DNA from: Pleurocapsa sp. FMAR1
GTDB taxonomy: Bacteria > Cyanobacteriota > Cyanobacteriia > Cyanobacteriales > Xenococcaceae
Length of the DNA: 64,000 nucleotides
Reading direction: 5' to 3'
Assembly (NCBI RefSeq): GCF_963665995.1
Contig: NZ_OY762512.1
Coordinates: 186,001 to 250,000, forward strand
Shown: positions 37,086 to 52,358 of the stretch, one piece after another
How positions within the stretch are numbered: the stretch's first letter is position 1
How the letters are laid out: every line of letters begins with the position of its first letter
Translations under genes and position numbers: made by a program
The notes under the pieces: model-generated
Databases searched by the model: none
The model's input: only the letters and a program-made list of their open reading frames with translations
What the model was told of the DNA's origin: nothing

Positions 37086-37270
37086 GAAAAGATCACGGAT
37101 GAGGCTAATTAGCATTACTGAATTTATAGGTTATACGTATATCCTCAAAAGTCTACTCTTCATACATGATTTTAGTTAGTAAACCATGACATTTAGATAC
37201 AGCTACGGTAACAAGTTATACATTTTTGTCTACAGCAAGTAAGTATCTTGAGTGTAAGAAAAATTTCAGA

Positions 37271-37405
37271 TAGCTTCTAGGGTTCCGATTTAAGGCAACT
37301 AATAAATGGCTGGTCCGAGAGAAGCAAGCTACCTACAAAGTTAATAATTTCAGTAGATTTTACTACTAGGTAGCTCCACGGCGGGAAAAAAGCCCGGGAG
37401 GATTC
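37271..37405 (+). promoter_or_regulatory. Guanidine-I (ykkC) riboswitch aptamer
   Basis: The conserved blocks are present in order. CTAGGGTTCCG lies at 37277-37287 and GGCTGGTCCGAGAG at 37308-37321. A stem AGCTACCT (37327-37334) pairs with AGGTAGCT (37368-37375). CACGGCGGG (37377-37385), an A-run and GCCCGGGAG (37392-37400) complete it. These are the hallmark sequences of the ykkC class that binds guanidinium. It lies directly upstream of the gdmH gene, and its 3' side overlaps a terminator, as expected for a switch that turns genes on when guanidine binds. Confidence 0.95.
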
Positions 37406-37443: not shown

Positions 37444-37474
37444 AATTTATAGCAAATTGTGGAGAAATAATTTA

Positions 37475-38668
37475 ATGAGCGGACAACCCCCATTTCAACC
37501 ACCTAATAACAATGAAAATGAATACAGCAGTGAAGCGCAAAAAGCGTTAGACAAAGAAAGACAGCTACCCCTTACAGGCTGGCAGCAAGAAGTAGACCAA
37601 GGCTTAGAATATGGTTTAGAAGCAGCAGAAAGTATAAATGACCGAACTATTTCTACTTTTTCGCGGGGAGAATTGCCCCACTATGCAGGAATTAATACTT
37701 TCATGAAAGCTCCCTATTTGGAGAATGTAAATCAAGTAGGCAATTACGACGTAGCAATCATTGGCGTTCCTCATGATTCTGGGACTACCTACCGCCCTGG
37801 CACAAGGTTTGGGCCTCAAGGTATTCGCAAAATTTCTGCTTTATACACCCCCTATAACTTTGAGCTGGGGGTAGATTTACGCGAACAAATTACTCTCTGC
37901 GACGTGGGAGATATATTTACTATTCCTGCTAATAATGAAAAGTCTTTCGATCAGATTTCCAAAGGTGTGGCACACGTTTTTAGTTCGGGAGCATTTCCGA
38001 TTATCTTAGGAGGCGATCATTCCATTGGCTTTCCTACAGTTAGGGCTGTTTGTCGTCATCTAGGAGATAAGAAAGTTGGTATTATTCACTTTGATCGCCA
38101 TGCCGATACCCAAGAAACTGATTTAGATGAAAGAATGCACACCTGTCCTTGGTTTCATGCGACCAATATGGTAAATGCTCCCGCCAAAAACTTAGTGCAA
38201 ATGGGCATCGGTGGCTGGCAAGTACCCCGCCCAGGAGTAAAAGTATGTCGAGAAAGAGCGACTAATATTTTGACCGTAACCGACATTGTGGAAATGGGCT
38301 TAGATGCAGCAGCAGATTTTGCTATAGAGCGAGCTTCAGACGGTACGGATTGCGTTTGGATTAGCTTTGATATTGACTGCATCGATGCAGGTTTTGTCCC
38401 TGGTACTGGTTGGCCCGAACCTGGCGGATTGTTGCCCCGCGAAGTTTTGCATTTACTCAAGAGGATTGTTCAAAATACCACCGTATGCGGAATAGAAGTT
38501 GTCGAAGTCTCTCCACCCTATGACGTTAGCGACATGACGGCATTAATGGCAACCCGCGTAATCTGCGACACAATGGCACATTTAATTATATCGGGACAGT
38601 TACCTCGTACAGAAAAGCCCTCTTATATTCACGACGAAGCCCAAGTAGTCGATGAACCTTGGCAATAA
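37475..38668 (+). CDS. gdmH: Guanidine hydrolase (Ni-dependent, arginase/agmatinase fold)
   Basis: A 397-residue ureohydrolase-fold enzyme. ATG 37475 is preferred, with GGAGA 9 bases upstream. Metal-site motifs: IILGGDHSIGFPTV (179-183), IIHFDRHADTQETD (206-211) and WISFDIDCIDAGFVPGTG (Asp299, Asp301). The DRHAD and CIDAGF variants, the long N-terminal arm and the size fit the cyanobacterial group typified by Synechocystis Sll1077. That protein was shown to be a Ni-dependent guanidine hydrolase (guanidine to urea plus ammonium), not an agmatinase. The guanidine riboswitch and the HypA/HypB-like genes downstream support this strongly. Confidence 0.92.
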   Translation: MSGQPPFQPPNNNENEYSSEAQKALDKERQLPLTGWQQEVDQGLEYGLEAAESINDRTISTFSRGELPHYAGINTFMKAPYLENVNQVGNYDVAIIGVPHDSGTTYRPGTRFGPQGIRKISALYTPYNFELGVDLREQITLCDVGDIFTIPANNEKSFDQISKGVAHVFSSGAFPIILGGDHSIGFPTVRAVCRHLGDKKVGIIHFDRHADTQETDLDERMHTCPWFHATNMVNAPAKNLVQMGIGGWQVPRPGVKVCRERATNILTVTDIVEMGLDAAADFAIERASDGTDCVWISFDIDCIDAGFVPGTGWPEPGGLLPREVLHLLKRIVQNTTVCGIEVVEVSPPYDVSDMTALMATRVICDTMAHLIISGQLPRTEKPSYIHDEAQVVDEPWQ

Positions 38669-38906: not shown

Positions 38907-39677
38907 ATGACGGACAATCTATATCAAATGAATCCTCAAGAGCGATTTAGCGATCGCGCCGAAGATTATGCTAAATATCGACCTAGTTATCCATCTGAGG
39001 CTATAGACTGTATTTTAGATGAATTGAGCGCACCATCTCAGTTAATAGCTGCCGATATCGGAGCGGGGACTGGTATTTCTGCTCGCTTGCTAGCCGATAG
39101 AGGAGTTAGGGTAAAAGCGATCGAGCCTAATTTAGCCATGAGAGAAGTAGCAACTCCTCATCCATTAATTCAGTTTAAAGATGGTAATGCTGAGAGTACT
39201 AAATTAAATAACAATTCAGTCGATTTAGTTACTTGTTTTCAGGCTTTTCACTGGTTTAATCCCGAACTAACTTTAACCGAAGTTGCCCGTATTGTTAAAT
39301 CTCAAGGCAAAATCGCTCTAATTTGGAATGACCGCGACATTAATGGAAAAGACGAATTTACTCGTCAACATGGAAAGATTATTACTCAAGCATCTGGTAA
39401 CAGCCCCATTCACTCTCGTCTCGATGGATATAGTTATGAGCTAATTAATTCTTGGTTTACCAATCTGGTTCGCTATAGTTTTCCCTATCAGCAAGCTATG
39501 ACTAAAGAACAATTAATTGGGTTAGCTCTTAGTGCTTCCTATATACCTAAAAGAGGAGATATACATCAACAACTGGTTAATAATTTAACTAATTTACACC
39601 AGAAATATAGCGATAAATTGGGTTTAGTTTACCTGCAATATCAAACTAACGTTTATTTAACAAATGCACGAAACTGA
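38907..39677 (+). CDS. Class I SAM-dependent methyltransferase
   Basis: A 256-residue methyltransferase: RFSDRAEDYAKYRPSYP at the start, SAM motif I ADIGAGTGISARLLADRG (about 49-66), VKAIEPNLAMREVA (acidic ribose ligand), DLVTCFQAFHWF (motif IV) and IALIWNDRD. The fold and 'F..RA..Y...RP.YP' start resemble UbiE/Tam-like small-molecule enzymes. It ends 14 bases inside ghaA (39664), so the two are translationally linked. It sits inside the guanidine module, but its substrate is unknown; methylation of a guanidino compound is only a guess. Confidence 0.85.
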   Translation: MTDNLYQMNPQERFSDRAEDYAKYRPSYPSEAIDCILDELSAPSQLIAADIGAGTGISARLLADRGVRVKAIEPNLAMREVATPHPLIQFKDGNAESTKLNNNSVDLVTCFQAFHWFNPELTLTEVARIVKSQGKIALIWNDRDINGKDEFTRQHGKIITQASGNSPIHSRLDGYSYELINSWFTNLVRYSFPYQQAMTKEQLIGLALSASYIPKRGDIHQQLVNNLTNLHQKYSDKLGLVYLQYQTNVYLTNARN

Positions 39678-40113
39678 TATGACCAAGGCTTTAATCTTAA
39701 CGGTTAAAGATTGGTATTATTCTCAATCCGAACCACTAAAAATAGACAAGATTCATTTAGTAGTTGGCAAGTTTACCTGTGTCGAACCCGTAAGTTTGCA
39801 GTTTGCCTTTGAAGTTCAAACTCGCAATACTTTCTTGGAAGGAGTGGAACTAGCCATTCGCGACATTCCTTTAATTGCTTTTTGTCATGCCTGTCAACAC
39901 GAGTACACACCCGAAATTGGACTGCAATATAGCTGTCCCGATTGTAAATCTCCTATGGAAGATATTCGCTCTGGTCGAGAACTAAAAATTGATCGCATTG
40001 AATATTCTGCAAATTCCTGTAAGGGCGAACGGAGAGGCACTTTCGTTGGGCGGGTTCCCCGACTTGAGAAAAGTGCCGAACCCGAAGGGCCGTTCGCCCC
40101 TACTGATTACTAA
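39664..40113 (+). CDS. ghaA: HypA-like nickel chaperone for guanidine hydrolase
   Basis: A HypA-family protein that delivers nickel. It starts MHETDMTKALILTV with the Ni-ligand His2, which fixes the start despite the 14-base overlap with the previous gene. The zinc site is Cys74, Cys77, Cys91, Cys94 (FCHACQHEY and YSCPDCKSPM). Homologues beside gdmH in Synechocystis (GhaA) activate the hydrolase rather than hydrogenase; no hydrogenase gene is seen here. The frame runs to 149 residues, but the last 30 or so are encoded by a palindromic repeat (40023-40099). Normal length would be about 115-118. Confidence 0.9.
   Translation: MHETDMTKALILTVKDWYYSQSEPLKIDKIHLVVGKFTCVEPVSLQFAFEVQTRNTFLEGVELAIRDIPLIAFCHACQHEYTPEIGLQYSCPDCKSPMEDIRSGRELKIDRIEYSANSCKGERRGTFVGRVPRLEKSAEPEGPFAPTDY
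40023..40099. repeat. Palindromic repeat inside the 3' end of ghaA
   Basis: GGGCGAACGG (40023-40032) is mirrored by CCGTTCGCCC (40090-40099). Within it, GGCACTTTCGTTGGGCGGGT and ACTTGAGAAAAGTGCCGAAC form a second pairing (GGCACTTT/AAAGTGCC-like). A related short hairpin, GGCGAACGGCTTTTCGCCC, occurs at about 48322. The repeat is translated in frame as the ghaA tail. Confidence 0.75.
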
Positions 40114-40131: not shown

Positions 40132-40833
40132 ATGCACCAAACATTTGACGCTGCAATTGAGCTTAATTTACTCCACGCCAACCAAGAAGGCGCAGACCAT
40201 AACCGAGAACACTTCGATCGCTGGGGTATTACCTGTCTCAATATTATGAGCAGTCCTGGGGCGGGAAAAACTGTTCTTCTCGAACAAACATTAGCTGCAT
40301 TAAAAGCTAAATTTAAGCTCGTAGTCATTGAAGGAGATATGACCACCGAACTGGATGCTGATCGCCTTCGTAAATATGATGTTCCTGTAATTCCAATTAA
40401 CACTGGACGTTCTTGCCATTTAGATTCCAAGATGGTCGCGGGAGGCATTCACACTCTTCAACATCAATACAATCCCAGCGATTTCGATTTAGTTTTTGTA
40501 GAAAACGTGGGGAACTTAGTTTGTCCCGCCGAATTTGAAGTAGGCGAACACGCTAAGGTGGCTTTACTCAGCGTCACCGAAGGAGAAGACAAACCCTTAA
40601 AATATCCCGTGATGTTCCAGCAAGCAGATTGCCTGTTAATTACCAAAACCGATTTAGCACCCTATTTAGACATTGACCTTAATCGCATTGCTGACAATGT
40701 ACGGCAGATGAATCCCCACGTAACCATTATCTACCTCTCAGGGAAAACAGGCGAGGGTTTGCAACAGTGGTTTGATTGGGTCGGTCAAAGTCTAAAAGCA
40801 AACCAAGCCAACCAGTTGGCAACAAAAGTTTAA
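40132..40833 (+). CDS. ghaB: HypB-like nickel-insertion GTPase for guanidine hydrolase
   Basis: A 233-residue HypB-family GTPase. P-loop SPGAGKT (41-47), [11 protein letters not shown] (about 68-78), the G-domain metal site Cys95-His96 (NTGRSCHLD) with Cys131 ([10 protein letters not shown]), and TKTD (GTP base). It lacks the His-rich N-terminal store of hydrogenase HypB proteins. It begins 18 bases after ghaA. In Synechocystis the equivalent (GhaB) is needed for active guanidine hydrolase, so the same role is assigned here. Confidence 0.92.
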
Positions 40834-40909: not shown

Positions 40910-42412
40910 ATGACAACAAAACTTCTGTTCTGGGGAATTATCGTATTTTTGGTTGGTACTTTAGCAATTGGACTATGGGCTGCCAAACAAGTTAAGGGAG
41001 ATAGCGAAAACTATCTAGTTGCAGGAAGAGGGCTAGTTTTGCCTTTAGCAGCAGCGACTTTGATGGCGCAGTCAGTAGACTCTAATGCCACTTTGGGCAA
41101 TACTGATTTGGTAGCCGAGTTTGGTTTTTGGGCTGGGGCATCTTTACCAATTGGGTTAGCACTGTGCTTGTTTTTAACTGCCCTATTTTTTGCTAAACCA
41201 ATGAACCGTATGGGTTTAATTACTCTGCCAGATTTTTATAGAGTTAAATACAATCATCTCACTGAAGTAGTGGCATCGCTGTTAATGGTGCTGAGTTTTT
41301 CTTTTCTGCTAGCTGGTAATTTAGTGGCAGGGGGATATATGTTCGAGGCTTTTCTCGGCACGAGCTATACGGCTGGGGTAATACTGTTAGCAATTGTGGT
41401 CTTTATCTATACTGCTAGCGGTGGGCTGTTTGCTGTGGCATATACTGACGCTATTCAAGTTGGTATCGCTCTTATTGGTTCATTAGGTTTACTGGCTTTT
41501 ATCGCTGTTAATTTTGGGTTAGAAATTCCTGCCGATACTGGTCCATTGGCTTTTGCACAATTAACCGATCCTGGTGCTGGTGCAGTAGTTAACTGGGCAA
41601 CTCTACTCGCATTGGGATTGGGAGATATCGTGGCGATCGACTTTATGGCACGCATCTTTGCAGCTAAAAGCCCCGAAACCGCACAAAGAGCCTGTTTAAT
41701 TGGCTGTGCTGGTACTTTGATTATTGGTATTCCTTTTTCTCTTATTGCTCTTTCTGCACCACAAATTCTCGCTGATGCGGGGATTACTCCTGATGGTCCC
41801 ATTTTGTATGCCTTAATTGATGGTGTGGTACCTCCCCTACTGGGATTGATAGTTATTATGGCAATCCTTTCTGCTTCTCTTTCTACTGCTGATGGAGCAA
41901 TTTTAGGCACTTCTTCCGTCATCGCCCACAATATTGTAGGGATTCAAGCCAATGACAACAATGCAGCAGGAGACAGACTTTTATTAATTACTCGTACCAT
42001 GGCTTTTGTAATTACCACTTTGGGAGTGATTTTTGCCCTCAAAGTTCCTCAAACTGGGGTTTTGCTGCTACTGGCTTTTGATCTCGGCTTCGCAGGTCTT
42101 CTAGTACCTCTTGCTGGGGGTATTTACTGGAGTAAGGCAACTTGGCAGGGTGCGCTATCCTGCATTGTTTTAGGTTCGCTGACGCGATTAATTTTCTTTG
42201 TGCTAATGCCTGTTACCTTTGGGATCGACAATACGCTGCTATATATTCCTAATGATATTTTTACGGCAGATTTTGATGGTTTTCCGACTCTGATTAGTCC
42301 TTTGGTAGGATTAACTGCATTTATTATCGTCTCTAATCTGACAGGAGGAAATAAAGCTACAAGAGAGCGCGCACGTTCTAGCAAAAGAGAAGCGCAAATA
42401 TATCGAGGTTAA
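40910..42412 (+). CDS. Sodium:solute symporter (SSS family), candidate guanidine importer
   Basis: A 500-residue protein with about 13 membrane segments. The frame is open from TTG 40892, but ATG 40910 is preferred (MTTKLLFWGIIVFLVGT). SSS features: GDSENYLVAGRGLVLPLAAA, GLITLPDFYRVKYNHL, AVAYTDAIQVGIALIGSLG and ASLSTADGAILGTSSVIAHNI, the last holding the Na2-site Ser-Thr pattern. It follows ghaB by 76 bases on the same strand. Synechocystis has an ABC importer in the matching position, so a guanidine import role is a reasonable inference, but a urea or other solute is possible. Confidence 0.85.
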   Translation: MTTKLLFWGIIVFLVGTLAIGLWAAKQVKGDSENYLVAGRGLVLPLAAATLMAQSVDSNATLGNTDLVAEFGFWAGASLPIGLALCLFLTALFFAKPMNRMGLITLPDFYRVKYNHLTEVVASLLMVLSFSFLLAGNLVAGGYMFEAFLGTSYTAGVILLAIVVFIYTASGGLFAVAYTDAIQVGIALIGSLGLLAFIAVNFGLEIPADTGPLAFAQLTDPGAGAVVNWATLLALGLGDIVAIDFMARIFAAKSPETAQRACLIGCAGTLIIGIPFSLIALSAPQILADAGITPDGPILYALIDGVVPPLLGLIVIMAILSASLSTADGAILGTSSVIAHNIVGIQANDNNAAGDRLLLITRTMAFVITTLGVIFALKVPQTGVLLLLAFDLGFAGLLVPLAGGIYWSKATWQGALSCIVLGSLTRLIFFVLMPVTFGIDNTLLYIPNDIFTADFDGFPTLISPLVGLTAFIIVSNLTGGNKATRERARSSKREAQIYRG

Positions 42413-44112: not shown

Positions 44113-44475
44113 TTATTTATAATAGGTTACGCCACGATATTTTAATTTGGTTTTCTGTTGCTTTAAAGTCTTGCTTTTTTCAATTTGTAAAGTCAAATTC
44201 CAAGCGCAATCGAGTTTTTCTATATGATCCAAATTCCAGCAATCTTGAATAAATTCTCTTTTGTGGTCATACCAAAATGCGATCGGATCGAAAACTCTTA
44301 ATTCAGACTTCTGGAATAGCTGTTTGATATAGTTCAGCCAGGGAAATTTAGGATTAATTCTCGCGCTAAGAGAATTTCCTCGATAGATAATCTCTCTGTT
44401 TTCAACTATTACTGCTGGTGCGGAAAGGGTCTGATGCTCTTCGTTGTATGGCACTCCCCGATAAGTTAGCTTCAT
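44113..44475 (-). CDS. DUF4278 domain protein
   Basis: A 120-residue protein whose start is best placed at ATG 44475 (MKLTYRGVPYNEEH), three codons inside the longest frame. DUF4278 is a short cyanobacterial motif 'L.YRG..Y', seen here at both ends: KLTYRGVPY near the start and KLKYRGVTYYK at the end. The middle (about 35-100) is basic and unassigned. Function unknown. Confidence 0.7.
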   Translation of the reverse strand: MKLTYRGVPYNEEHQTLSAPAVIVENREIIYRGNSLSARINPKFPWLNYIKQLFQKSELRVFDPIAFWYDHKREFIQDCWNLDHIEKLDCAWNLTLQIEKSKTLKQQKTKLKYRGVTYYK

Positions 44476-44676
44476 GGATGTCACCTCTGTTACTGTATTT
44501 TTGTGAGGTGCGTTCCTTCAGGATGCTTGAGTTATTCCTTACTTCCGTCTTCTCTCATAAGTGCAGAGGAAAGATGAACGATTTAATAGTTCTACTCTTA
44601 TGATAATCAATAAATTACAGATTGAGAAGGTGGGATAATACTAAATTCTCTTCAAGTTAGGTAGCTAATAATTGAT

Positions 44677-50976: not shown

Positions 50977-52358
50977 TTAAACATAGTAGATATCAAATAA
51001 ACAACTAAATCCCGCAGTCATACCTGGAAAGACTTCATACACTGCATCTGATAATCCTAAGCCTAATTTCCAAAGTAGAGAAACTACGATACCTGAAATC
51101 ATGATGGCGATCGCAGCAGGAGTAGAGACAGGTTTTTCATAGCACCTTAATATTAGCAAGACTCCCAAACCAGAAGCTAAAATCGACCAAGCAAAGGTGA
51201 TTAAACCAAATACGCTATCGTTATTAGCAAGCGCAATTATTAAGACAATTGCGGTAACAATTAAAGTACCTATTTTGGCGTATTTATAGGACTTGGCTAA
51301 TCCTGGAAACAAGTCTTGAGTTAAAGCAGCAGAACAAGACAGTATTTGAGAATCGGCAGTAGAAATAGTACAGCAGCAAATAAGCCAGCTAACATTACTC
51401 CGACTAATATTCCTGGTAACAATTCCTGAGATAAATCGAGCAAAGCTAACTCTGGATCGCTTAAGTTTGGTAATATTGTTCTGGCTGCAAAGCCAATAAA
51501 AATGGCAGTAAAAGCAGTAATAAAACCGCAAATAGTTCTGATATTTCGTGCTTTGTTCATATTATCAGCCGAATCTAGTGCCATAGCCCTGACTAGTATG
51601 TGAGGCTGTCCAACAGCACCAAATCCCGCTACTAGCCAGCCGATGAAGAATGGCAAAAATCCCCAGGCTAAATCGCTCGGAAATAAAGCTACCAAGTTTG
51701 CATCTATCTGTCTTAAGTTGGTAAATATGTTACCAACTCCATCACCTGCAAAGATAGTGACGGTAAACAACAGTAGCAACGCACCAATCATCACAATAGT
51801 TTGTACTGAGTCTGTCCAAATTGAGGCGCGAATGCCTCCAGAGAAGCAGTAGACAACTACAATGATTGCACCAATGATAATCCCCCAAGCATAATCCCAA
51901 CCAAAAAGACTATTTAATGCTTTACTTCCTGCTAGCAGTTGCGCTGCTGCATAAGCACCCAAGAAGAAAATTGTAATCAACGCTGAAATAACAGAGATCC
52001 AGCGATAACCGGGTTGCTTTTGTGCCAGAAATGCAGGCACAGTTTCAGAGTCAGATGCTTCTGAAACTTGGCGTAATTGCTTAAAAACGAACGTCCAAGC
52101 TAGATAGTCGCCGATCGCCCAGCCGATCGCTAGCCAAATTGCTGATAAACCTTGAGTGTAAGCATATCCTACTTGCCCAGTAAATAAAAACCCACTTTGT
52201 CCAGTAGATAAAGCAGATAAAGCGATCGCCCAAGGATTAACATTTCTCCCTGCAAGTAGGTAATCACTCGTACTGTCTTGCTTCTGAGTTGCTGCATAAG
52301 TACCTACAATAGTAAATAATAGCAGAAAAAATAAAAAGGAAATTAGGGTCAAAGCCAT
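50977..52358 (-). pseudogene. Sodium:solute symporter (PutP-like), frameshifted
   Basis: Two overlapping frames together make one SSS transporter. The first (52358 to about 51370) carries STSDYLLAGRNVNPWAIALS, FSGGIRASIWTDSVQTIVM and VAGFGAVGQPHILVRAMALD, and breaks after MLAGLFAA. The second frame resumes with TISTADSQILSCSAALTQDL. The join needs removal of two bases (GT, plus-strand 51370-51371) or one insertion. The shape is that of Na+/proline symporters, of near full length (about 460). It is either a recent pseudogene or a sequence error; no other stop was seen in the merged frame. Confidence 0.85.

Follow-up and report, generated by a model that had tools for sequence, protein, structure and literature searches.

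What does a transporter of the sodium:solute symporter (SSS) family carry when its gene closes a cluster for guanidine breakdown? The question is raised by the cyanobacterium Pleurocapsa sp. FMAR1 (GCF_963665995.1; a single-contig genome of 5.43 Mb), from which we analysed a stretch of 64,000 nt, hereafter the window (NZ_OY762512.1, positions 186,001-250,000). On the forward strand of the window, an NtcA-type site, GTAN8TAC (37208..37221), with a TAN3T box 22 bases downstream, is followed by a guanidine-I riboswitch (37266..37402; RF00442, 79.9 bits, cut-off 63) and then by gdmH, encoding a Ni-dependent guanidine hydrolase (37469..38668; PF00491), a class I methyltransferase gene (38907..39677; PF08241), hypA (ghaA), encoding a nickel chaperone with a lengthened C terminus (39664..40113; TIGR00100, 117.6 bits, cut-off 88.1), hypB (ghaB), encoding a nickel insertion GTPase (40132..40833; TIGR00073, 309.9 bits, cut-off 121.2), and finally the SSS gene (40910..42412). 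The last is open over 500 amino acids from its ATG, and its product matches PF00474 at 115.6 bits against a gathering cut-off of 22.8, which places it within the SSS family, as a member of a new predicted substrate branch. Relatives of this protein stand beside genes for guanidine breakdown in many bacteria, and guanidine import is therefore its most likely function; on the strength of its family, its AlphaFold2 model and its gene context, we infer its substrate, its coupling to Na+ and its inward direction, and regard it as quite probably a Na+-coupled guanidine importer.

The earlier note on this DNA, which had suggested such an importer, placed the SSS gene 76 bases behind ghaB, and the spacing is as it described (last base of hypB at 40833, SSS start codon from 40910). 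In the interval from gdmH to the SSS gene, a simple scan found no terminator-like site on the forward strand, which makes it plausible that the SSS gene is co-transcribed with the riboswitch-gdmH operon in Pleurocapsa sp. FMAR1. The distance from the riboswitch to the SSS gene is 3.5 kb, a gap of 238 bases separates gdmH from the methyltransferase gene, and a promoter-like match stands immediately before the SSS gene, such matches being no commoner than in shuffled sequence. The next ORF downstream of the SSS gene lies on the opposite strand. Among the best 80 of 187 relatives described below, a methyltransferase gene is also found between gdmH and hypA at L004, L005, and L010. The hypA ORF spans 149 amino acids, of which the HypA model covers residues 1-115; the stretch beyond the model holds a 14-base inverted repeat (40019-40103) near the end of the gene, and the ten-base core of this repeat has no second exact copy in the window.

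That the cluster serves guanidine depends first on its hydrolase. The window GdmH matches the Synechocystis guanidinase of solved structure almost from end to end, and its best PDB matches are 7esr/7oi1. In the part consulted of a 2024 Nature paper (PMC11410670), guanidinases are recognised by Thr, His, and Trp at three positions, and all three residues are present here (Thr107, His224, and Trp315); our test used these three of the four residues named in that paper, the fourth being Glu344. The window gdmH is 83-94% identical to most of the gdmH genes that neighbour cyanobacterial SSS genes, and 72% identical to that of L026, which departs from the pattern (T, H, and R at the three positions). 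The whole-genome gdmH match of L026 spans residues 6-290 only, so that it may be a broken or frame-shifted copy.

To survey the relatives of the SSS protein, one genome per species was scanned; of the 187 relatives found, we examined the best 80 and not the more distant ones. These 80 loci comprise 31 of a cyanobacterial branch (one labelled Chloroflexaceae), an actinomycete metagenome-assembled genome (MAG; L032), 23 other actinobacteria, and 25 haloarchaea. Among these best 80, the fetched stretch includes gdmH in 16 of the 31 cyanobacterial loci and in L032; in 13 of the 15 remaining cyanobacterial genomes it is encoded elsewhere, and thus 29/31 cyanobacterial genomes plus L032, or 30 of the 32 genomes reached through their SSS loci, have the gene. 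Whole-genome searches found no gdmH match in G408 (a MAG) and G410 (Hydrocoleum); in G408, the contig stops about 130 bases beyond a guanidine-I riboswitch that faces its end. An even sample of 386 cyanobacterial genomes gave a similar picture: a close SSS relative (at least 69% identity) is present in seven, including that of the window, and all seven have gdmH, which occurs in 59 of the 386 overall (Fisher 1.4e-6, uncorrected for kinship). Three further SSS matches in this sample, at 30-32% identity, belong to genomes without gdmH. The arrangement of gdmH with the SSS gene is conserved well beyond chance, in both cyanobacteria and actinobacteria; the earlier note had called for a survey of this kind, and the lack of conserved neighbourhood that it said would count against its proposal is not what we find.

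The guanidine-I riboswitch of the window is the only match over the cut-off in the 5.43-Mb genome. In nine of the best 80 of 187 loci, the SSS gene itself is the first gene behind such a riboswitch (L011, L019, L023, L064, L065, L066, L069, L070, and L073), the first three scoring 77-86 bits when scored again. L019 is telling, since its gdmH and SSS genes are divergent and each has a separate riboswitch. On a Rubrobacter plasmid, a riboswitch, gdmH and the SSS gene follow one another, with a formamidase gene on the other strand and urease genes beyond, an order that also speaks for a guanidine importer. Searches of whole genomes, which covered those of 67 of these best 80 loci, gave guanidine-I matches in 26/32 and 9/35, with none in the 12 haloarchaeal or the 13 carboxylase-linked genomes searched. 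Rfam guanidine riboswitches are also absent from 12 SSS loci without linked gdmH (L008, L015-L018, L020, L022, L027-L030, and L054) and from the seven carboxylase-linked loci scanned. As a separate observation, the genome of L008 has hypA-hypB on the stretch L118 behind a guanidine-I match that stays below threshold (45.6 bits), and a second such match, also sub-threshold, precedes its gdmH on a different contig.

The actinobacterial relatives bring a second breakdown pathway into the comparison. All 23 actinobacterial loci among the best 80 of 187 adjoin either gdmH (10) or genes for DUF1989 (13), the Pfam family (PF09347) of carboxyguanidine deiminase. A carboxylase gene is present in 12 of these 13 DUF1989 loci; the thirteenth stretch, L072, is too short to show one. 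Each of the 12 enzymes carries Asp at the equivalents of both K. lactis positions 1330 and 1584, the published combination that marks a guanidine rather than a urea carboxylase. An even sample of 296 genomes from the actinobacterial class around one relative yielded six others with an SSS relative (E < 1e-80), and every one of them adjoins gdmH (four) or DUF1989 plus carboxylase genes (two), in a sample where gdmH occurs in 18 of 296 genomes, the central one included. Four of these six have their own guanidine-I riboswitch, fewer than 40 bases from the SSS match. None of the six stretches has more than two of the sampled 60-base probes in common with any of the 80 named loci. In a tree of 67 members, including that of the window, with two distant SSS outgroups, the actinobacterial proteins linked to gdmH and those linked to carboxylase genes are intermingled, with three changes of pathway, at least two of them forced by well-supported branches; the root is unsure because the outgroups are very distant. 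As judged from this tree, the transporter has been retained while the breakdown pathway changed. Since guanidine is the substrate common to the two pathways beside which the SSS gene is kept, this supports guanidine as its solute. The earlier note drew its importer from context only, and the riboswitches owned by some relatives, together with the guanidine carboxylase pathway that others accompany, now lend that proposal support from comparative sequence.

The predicted structure of the protein (AlphaFold2, mean pLDDT 84.3) has the LeuT-type fold, with broken helices predicted at about residues 56-57 and 241-242. Its nearest solved structure is the human choline transporter CHT1 (9bim; Z 46.8 over 470 residues, 2.9 A, 24% identity), followed by a sialic acid symporter, with DUR3 at Z 33.3 or less. 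Ala322, Ser325, and Thr326 of TM8, which align with A343, S346, and S347 of CHT1, supply the Na2 residues and are present in 67/67 members of the tree set. Asp57 and Asp244 are likewise found in all 67 and Asp239 in 65, with Asn in the other two; we infer that these acidic residues, which lie at the broken helices, bind guanidinium, Na+, or both. The PutP equivalent of Asp57 is known as a Na+ residue. Both residues of a third Na+ site, Asp180 and Asp328, are present in 27/27 cyanobacterial and 14/14 haloarchaeal proteins, but the site is lost in the actinobacteria (Asp180 in 0/26, Asp328 in 3/26), for which a lower Na+ ratio is predicted.

These results bear on the idea that the protein is a DUR3-like urea transporter, serving the uptake or recovery of urea that GdmH has produced. 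Urea is indeed the product of GdmH, DUR3 also belongs to the SSS family and shares its fold, urea is a small nitrogen-rich molecule close to guanidine in shape, and the Rubrobacter plasmid has urease genes near its SSS gene. However, the route of the 13 actinobacterial DUF1989 loci, 12 of them with the guanidine-type carboxylase, yields allophanate without urea, the riboswitch before several SSS genes is of the guanidine-I class, and the model lies nearer to CHT1 than to DUR3/UreA, whose substrate is neutral. We consider a urea transporter improbable.

If the SSS protein imports guanidine, it occupies a position that is usually held by another machine. In cyanobacteria, the slot after hypB is taken by an ABC importer or by an SSS protein. 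Of the 59 cyanobacterial genomes with gdmH, 37 supplied 40 stretches for comparison; these 37 do not include the genome of the window and its congener G070, both of which have SSS in the slot. The gdmH gene was among the ORF calls of 35 stretches, and at these 35 loci ABC genes (an NMT1-like binding protein, a permease, and an ATPase) were found at 28, SSS at two, neither at five, and both at none. Conversely, no gene for the ABC binding protein was found in the window or in the 80 SSS loci kept as the best of 187. Mutual exclusion of the two transporters across whole genomes was also expected and holds in part only: among the 59 gdmH genomes, a relative of the ABC binding protein is missing from 4/7 with SSS versus 3/52 without (Fisher 0.0024, uncorrected for kinship), and 28 further SSS genomes divide into 12 with a close relative (at least 49%) and 16 with none. 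The exclusion thus applies to the slot and not to the genome. Pleurocapsa sp. FMAR1 itself has a complete, unlinked ABC importer (genome positions 4915903-4918793; L200 5142-8032, reverse strand), whose binding protein falls inside the gdmH-linked ABC clade and for which no guanidine riboswitch over the cut-off was found, and the SSS protein may therefore be a second route that adds to this importer. Among six actinobacterial gdmH loci without SSS, from five of which ten nearby proteins were scanned, an amino-acid permease gene adjoins gdmH in one, an ABC permease gene lies near it in another, and a third has a 2OG-Fe(II) oxygenase gene; one and the same part thus seems to be played by different transporters. 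At L236, which lacks this SSS, gdmH adjoins such an oxygenase gene, and guanidine is possibly produced in the cell there rather than imported.

The haloarchaeal relatives are less easily read. In 24 of the 25 haloarchaeal loci among the best 80 of 187, the SSS gene adjoins one for a GdmH-like enzyme of 31-36% identity, and in all 24 of these loci this ureohydrolase has Glu in place of the Trp expected of a guanidinase. The clusters combine the SSS gene, a MazE/AbrB-PhoU-domain gene, and that of the GdmH-like enzyme (L033-L040, L042-L053, L055-L057, and L071, and also L204 and L206), with a formamidase gene near the cluster in L206. It is a tentative and rather doubtful extension of our reading that the whole clade consists of guanidinium importers across cyanobacteria, actinobacteria, and haloarchaea, the haloarchaeal clusters serving guanidine, or a guanidino compound close to it, by an archaeal route that has yet to be described. 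The same clusters can be cited for a transporter of some wider or other guanidino compound, such as methylguanidine, with guanidine as a secondary substrate. The part consulted of one report (PMC12508155) describes a halophile with guanidine riboswitches on an operon that converts methylguanidine to guanidine, and Pleurocapsa sp. FMAR1 has its ABC importer as well; on the other hand, according to the same part of the report, the class I riboswitch found there does not accept methylguanidine, and no dedicated demethylation gene was recognised among those SSS neighbours that were scanned. There is little chance, in our judgement, that guanidine is only the secondary substrate.

In the part consulted of PMC11589582, choline in CHT1 is surrounded by W62, Y67, Y91, W141, W254, and W406, which align with Val56, Thr61, Leu83, Leu133, Ala242, and Leu386 of the window protein; the aromatic cage is gone, and the replacing residues are unchanged in all 67 relatives except at position 56 (Val in 53, Leu in 14, the haloarchaea having Leu). 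That the protein moves proline, choline, or pantothenate and stands beside gdmH by accident is very hard to credit, because, although PutP is its best NCBIfam match and the choline transporter CHT1 its best solved relative, it scores far below the cut-offs for PutP (TIGR02121, 121 against 515.5 bits) and PanF (96.3 against 328), has lost the cage, and shares its guanidine context across two bacterial phyla and two pathways.

Returning to the guanidine importer, its expression would be tied to nitrogen supply. Among the SSS-bearing cyanobacterial loci of the best 80 of 187, GTAN8TAC, a pattern that we take to be the NtcA site, occurs within 200 nt upstream of 16 of 17 riboswitches, two of which (at L019) share one site, against a background of 3.9% of 200-base windows in the same loci; the exception is L006. 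The full arrangement with TAN3T precedes 11/17 riboswitches (background 0.8%). At the ABC-type gdmH loci, GTAN8TAC lies within 450 bases in 18/28 (background 7.6%), and before the riboswitch-free SSS genes it is mostly absent, occurring in two of 11 (L015 and L028; L054 was left out). According to the part consulted of PMC10094980, the Synechocystis gdmH operon drops under excess ammonium. In the mechanism that we propose, nitrogen shortage would fire the NtcA-type promoter, the riboswitch would let the transcript pass only with guanidine present, the SSS protein would import guanidinium together with Na+, and HypA and HypB would load GdmH with nickel for the splitting of guanidine into urea and ammonium. 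The combined pattern suggests a guanidine route that is open only under nitrogen shortage and with guanidine available to the cell.

Known systems offer partial parallels. The Synechocystis ABC importer Sll1080-1082 occupies the same slot after gdmH-hypA-hypB under a guanidine-I riboswitch, but it is driven by ATP, uses a binding protein, and is not homologous to SSS. The APC-superfamily permease of Nitrospira inopinata, a predicted guanidine importer, is, like SSS, a single-gene secondary carrier that accompanies a guanidinase under a guanidine-I riboswitch; however, it belongs to another transporter family, proton symport was suggested by its authors, and nickel chaperones are lacking there. 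CHT1 (SLC5A7) and the bacterial sfCHT share the SSS fold, the Na2 residues, and an organic cation as substrate, whereas the window protein has acids at its broken helices instead of the aromatic cage. The Gdx carriers (SMR) are likewise guanidinium carriers under guanidine riboswitches, but they are exporters working by proton antiport. The Gdx fold is unrelated to that of SSS. A 2025 review, in the part consulted, names only ABC and APC importers, and a literature search of partial coverage recognised no paper linking an SSS protein to guanidine. A sodium-driven importer, if real, would add a third type of transporter to those that fill this operon slot, one that spares ATP; it would provide an SSS protein for a planar cation, alongside the structurally known branches for choline and urea, and would give a testable substrate to proteins whose annotation goes no further than "sodium:solute symporter family protein".

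Two further features lie downstream in the window. A glutamine riboswitch (RF01739, 55.4 bits; 44507-44582, reverse strand) stands ahead of a small ORF (44113-44484, reverse strand), and glutamine riboswitches also occur near the SSS gene at L011 (4475-4553) and L054 (9367-9442). A second SSS paralogue (51321-52358, reverse strand), an ORF of 345 amino acids about 31% identical over 192 residues, is possibly a remnant.
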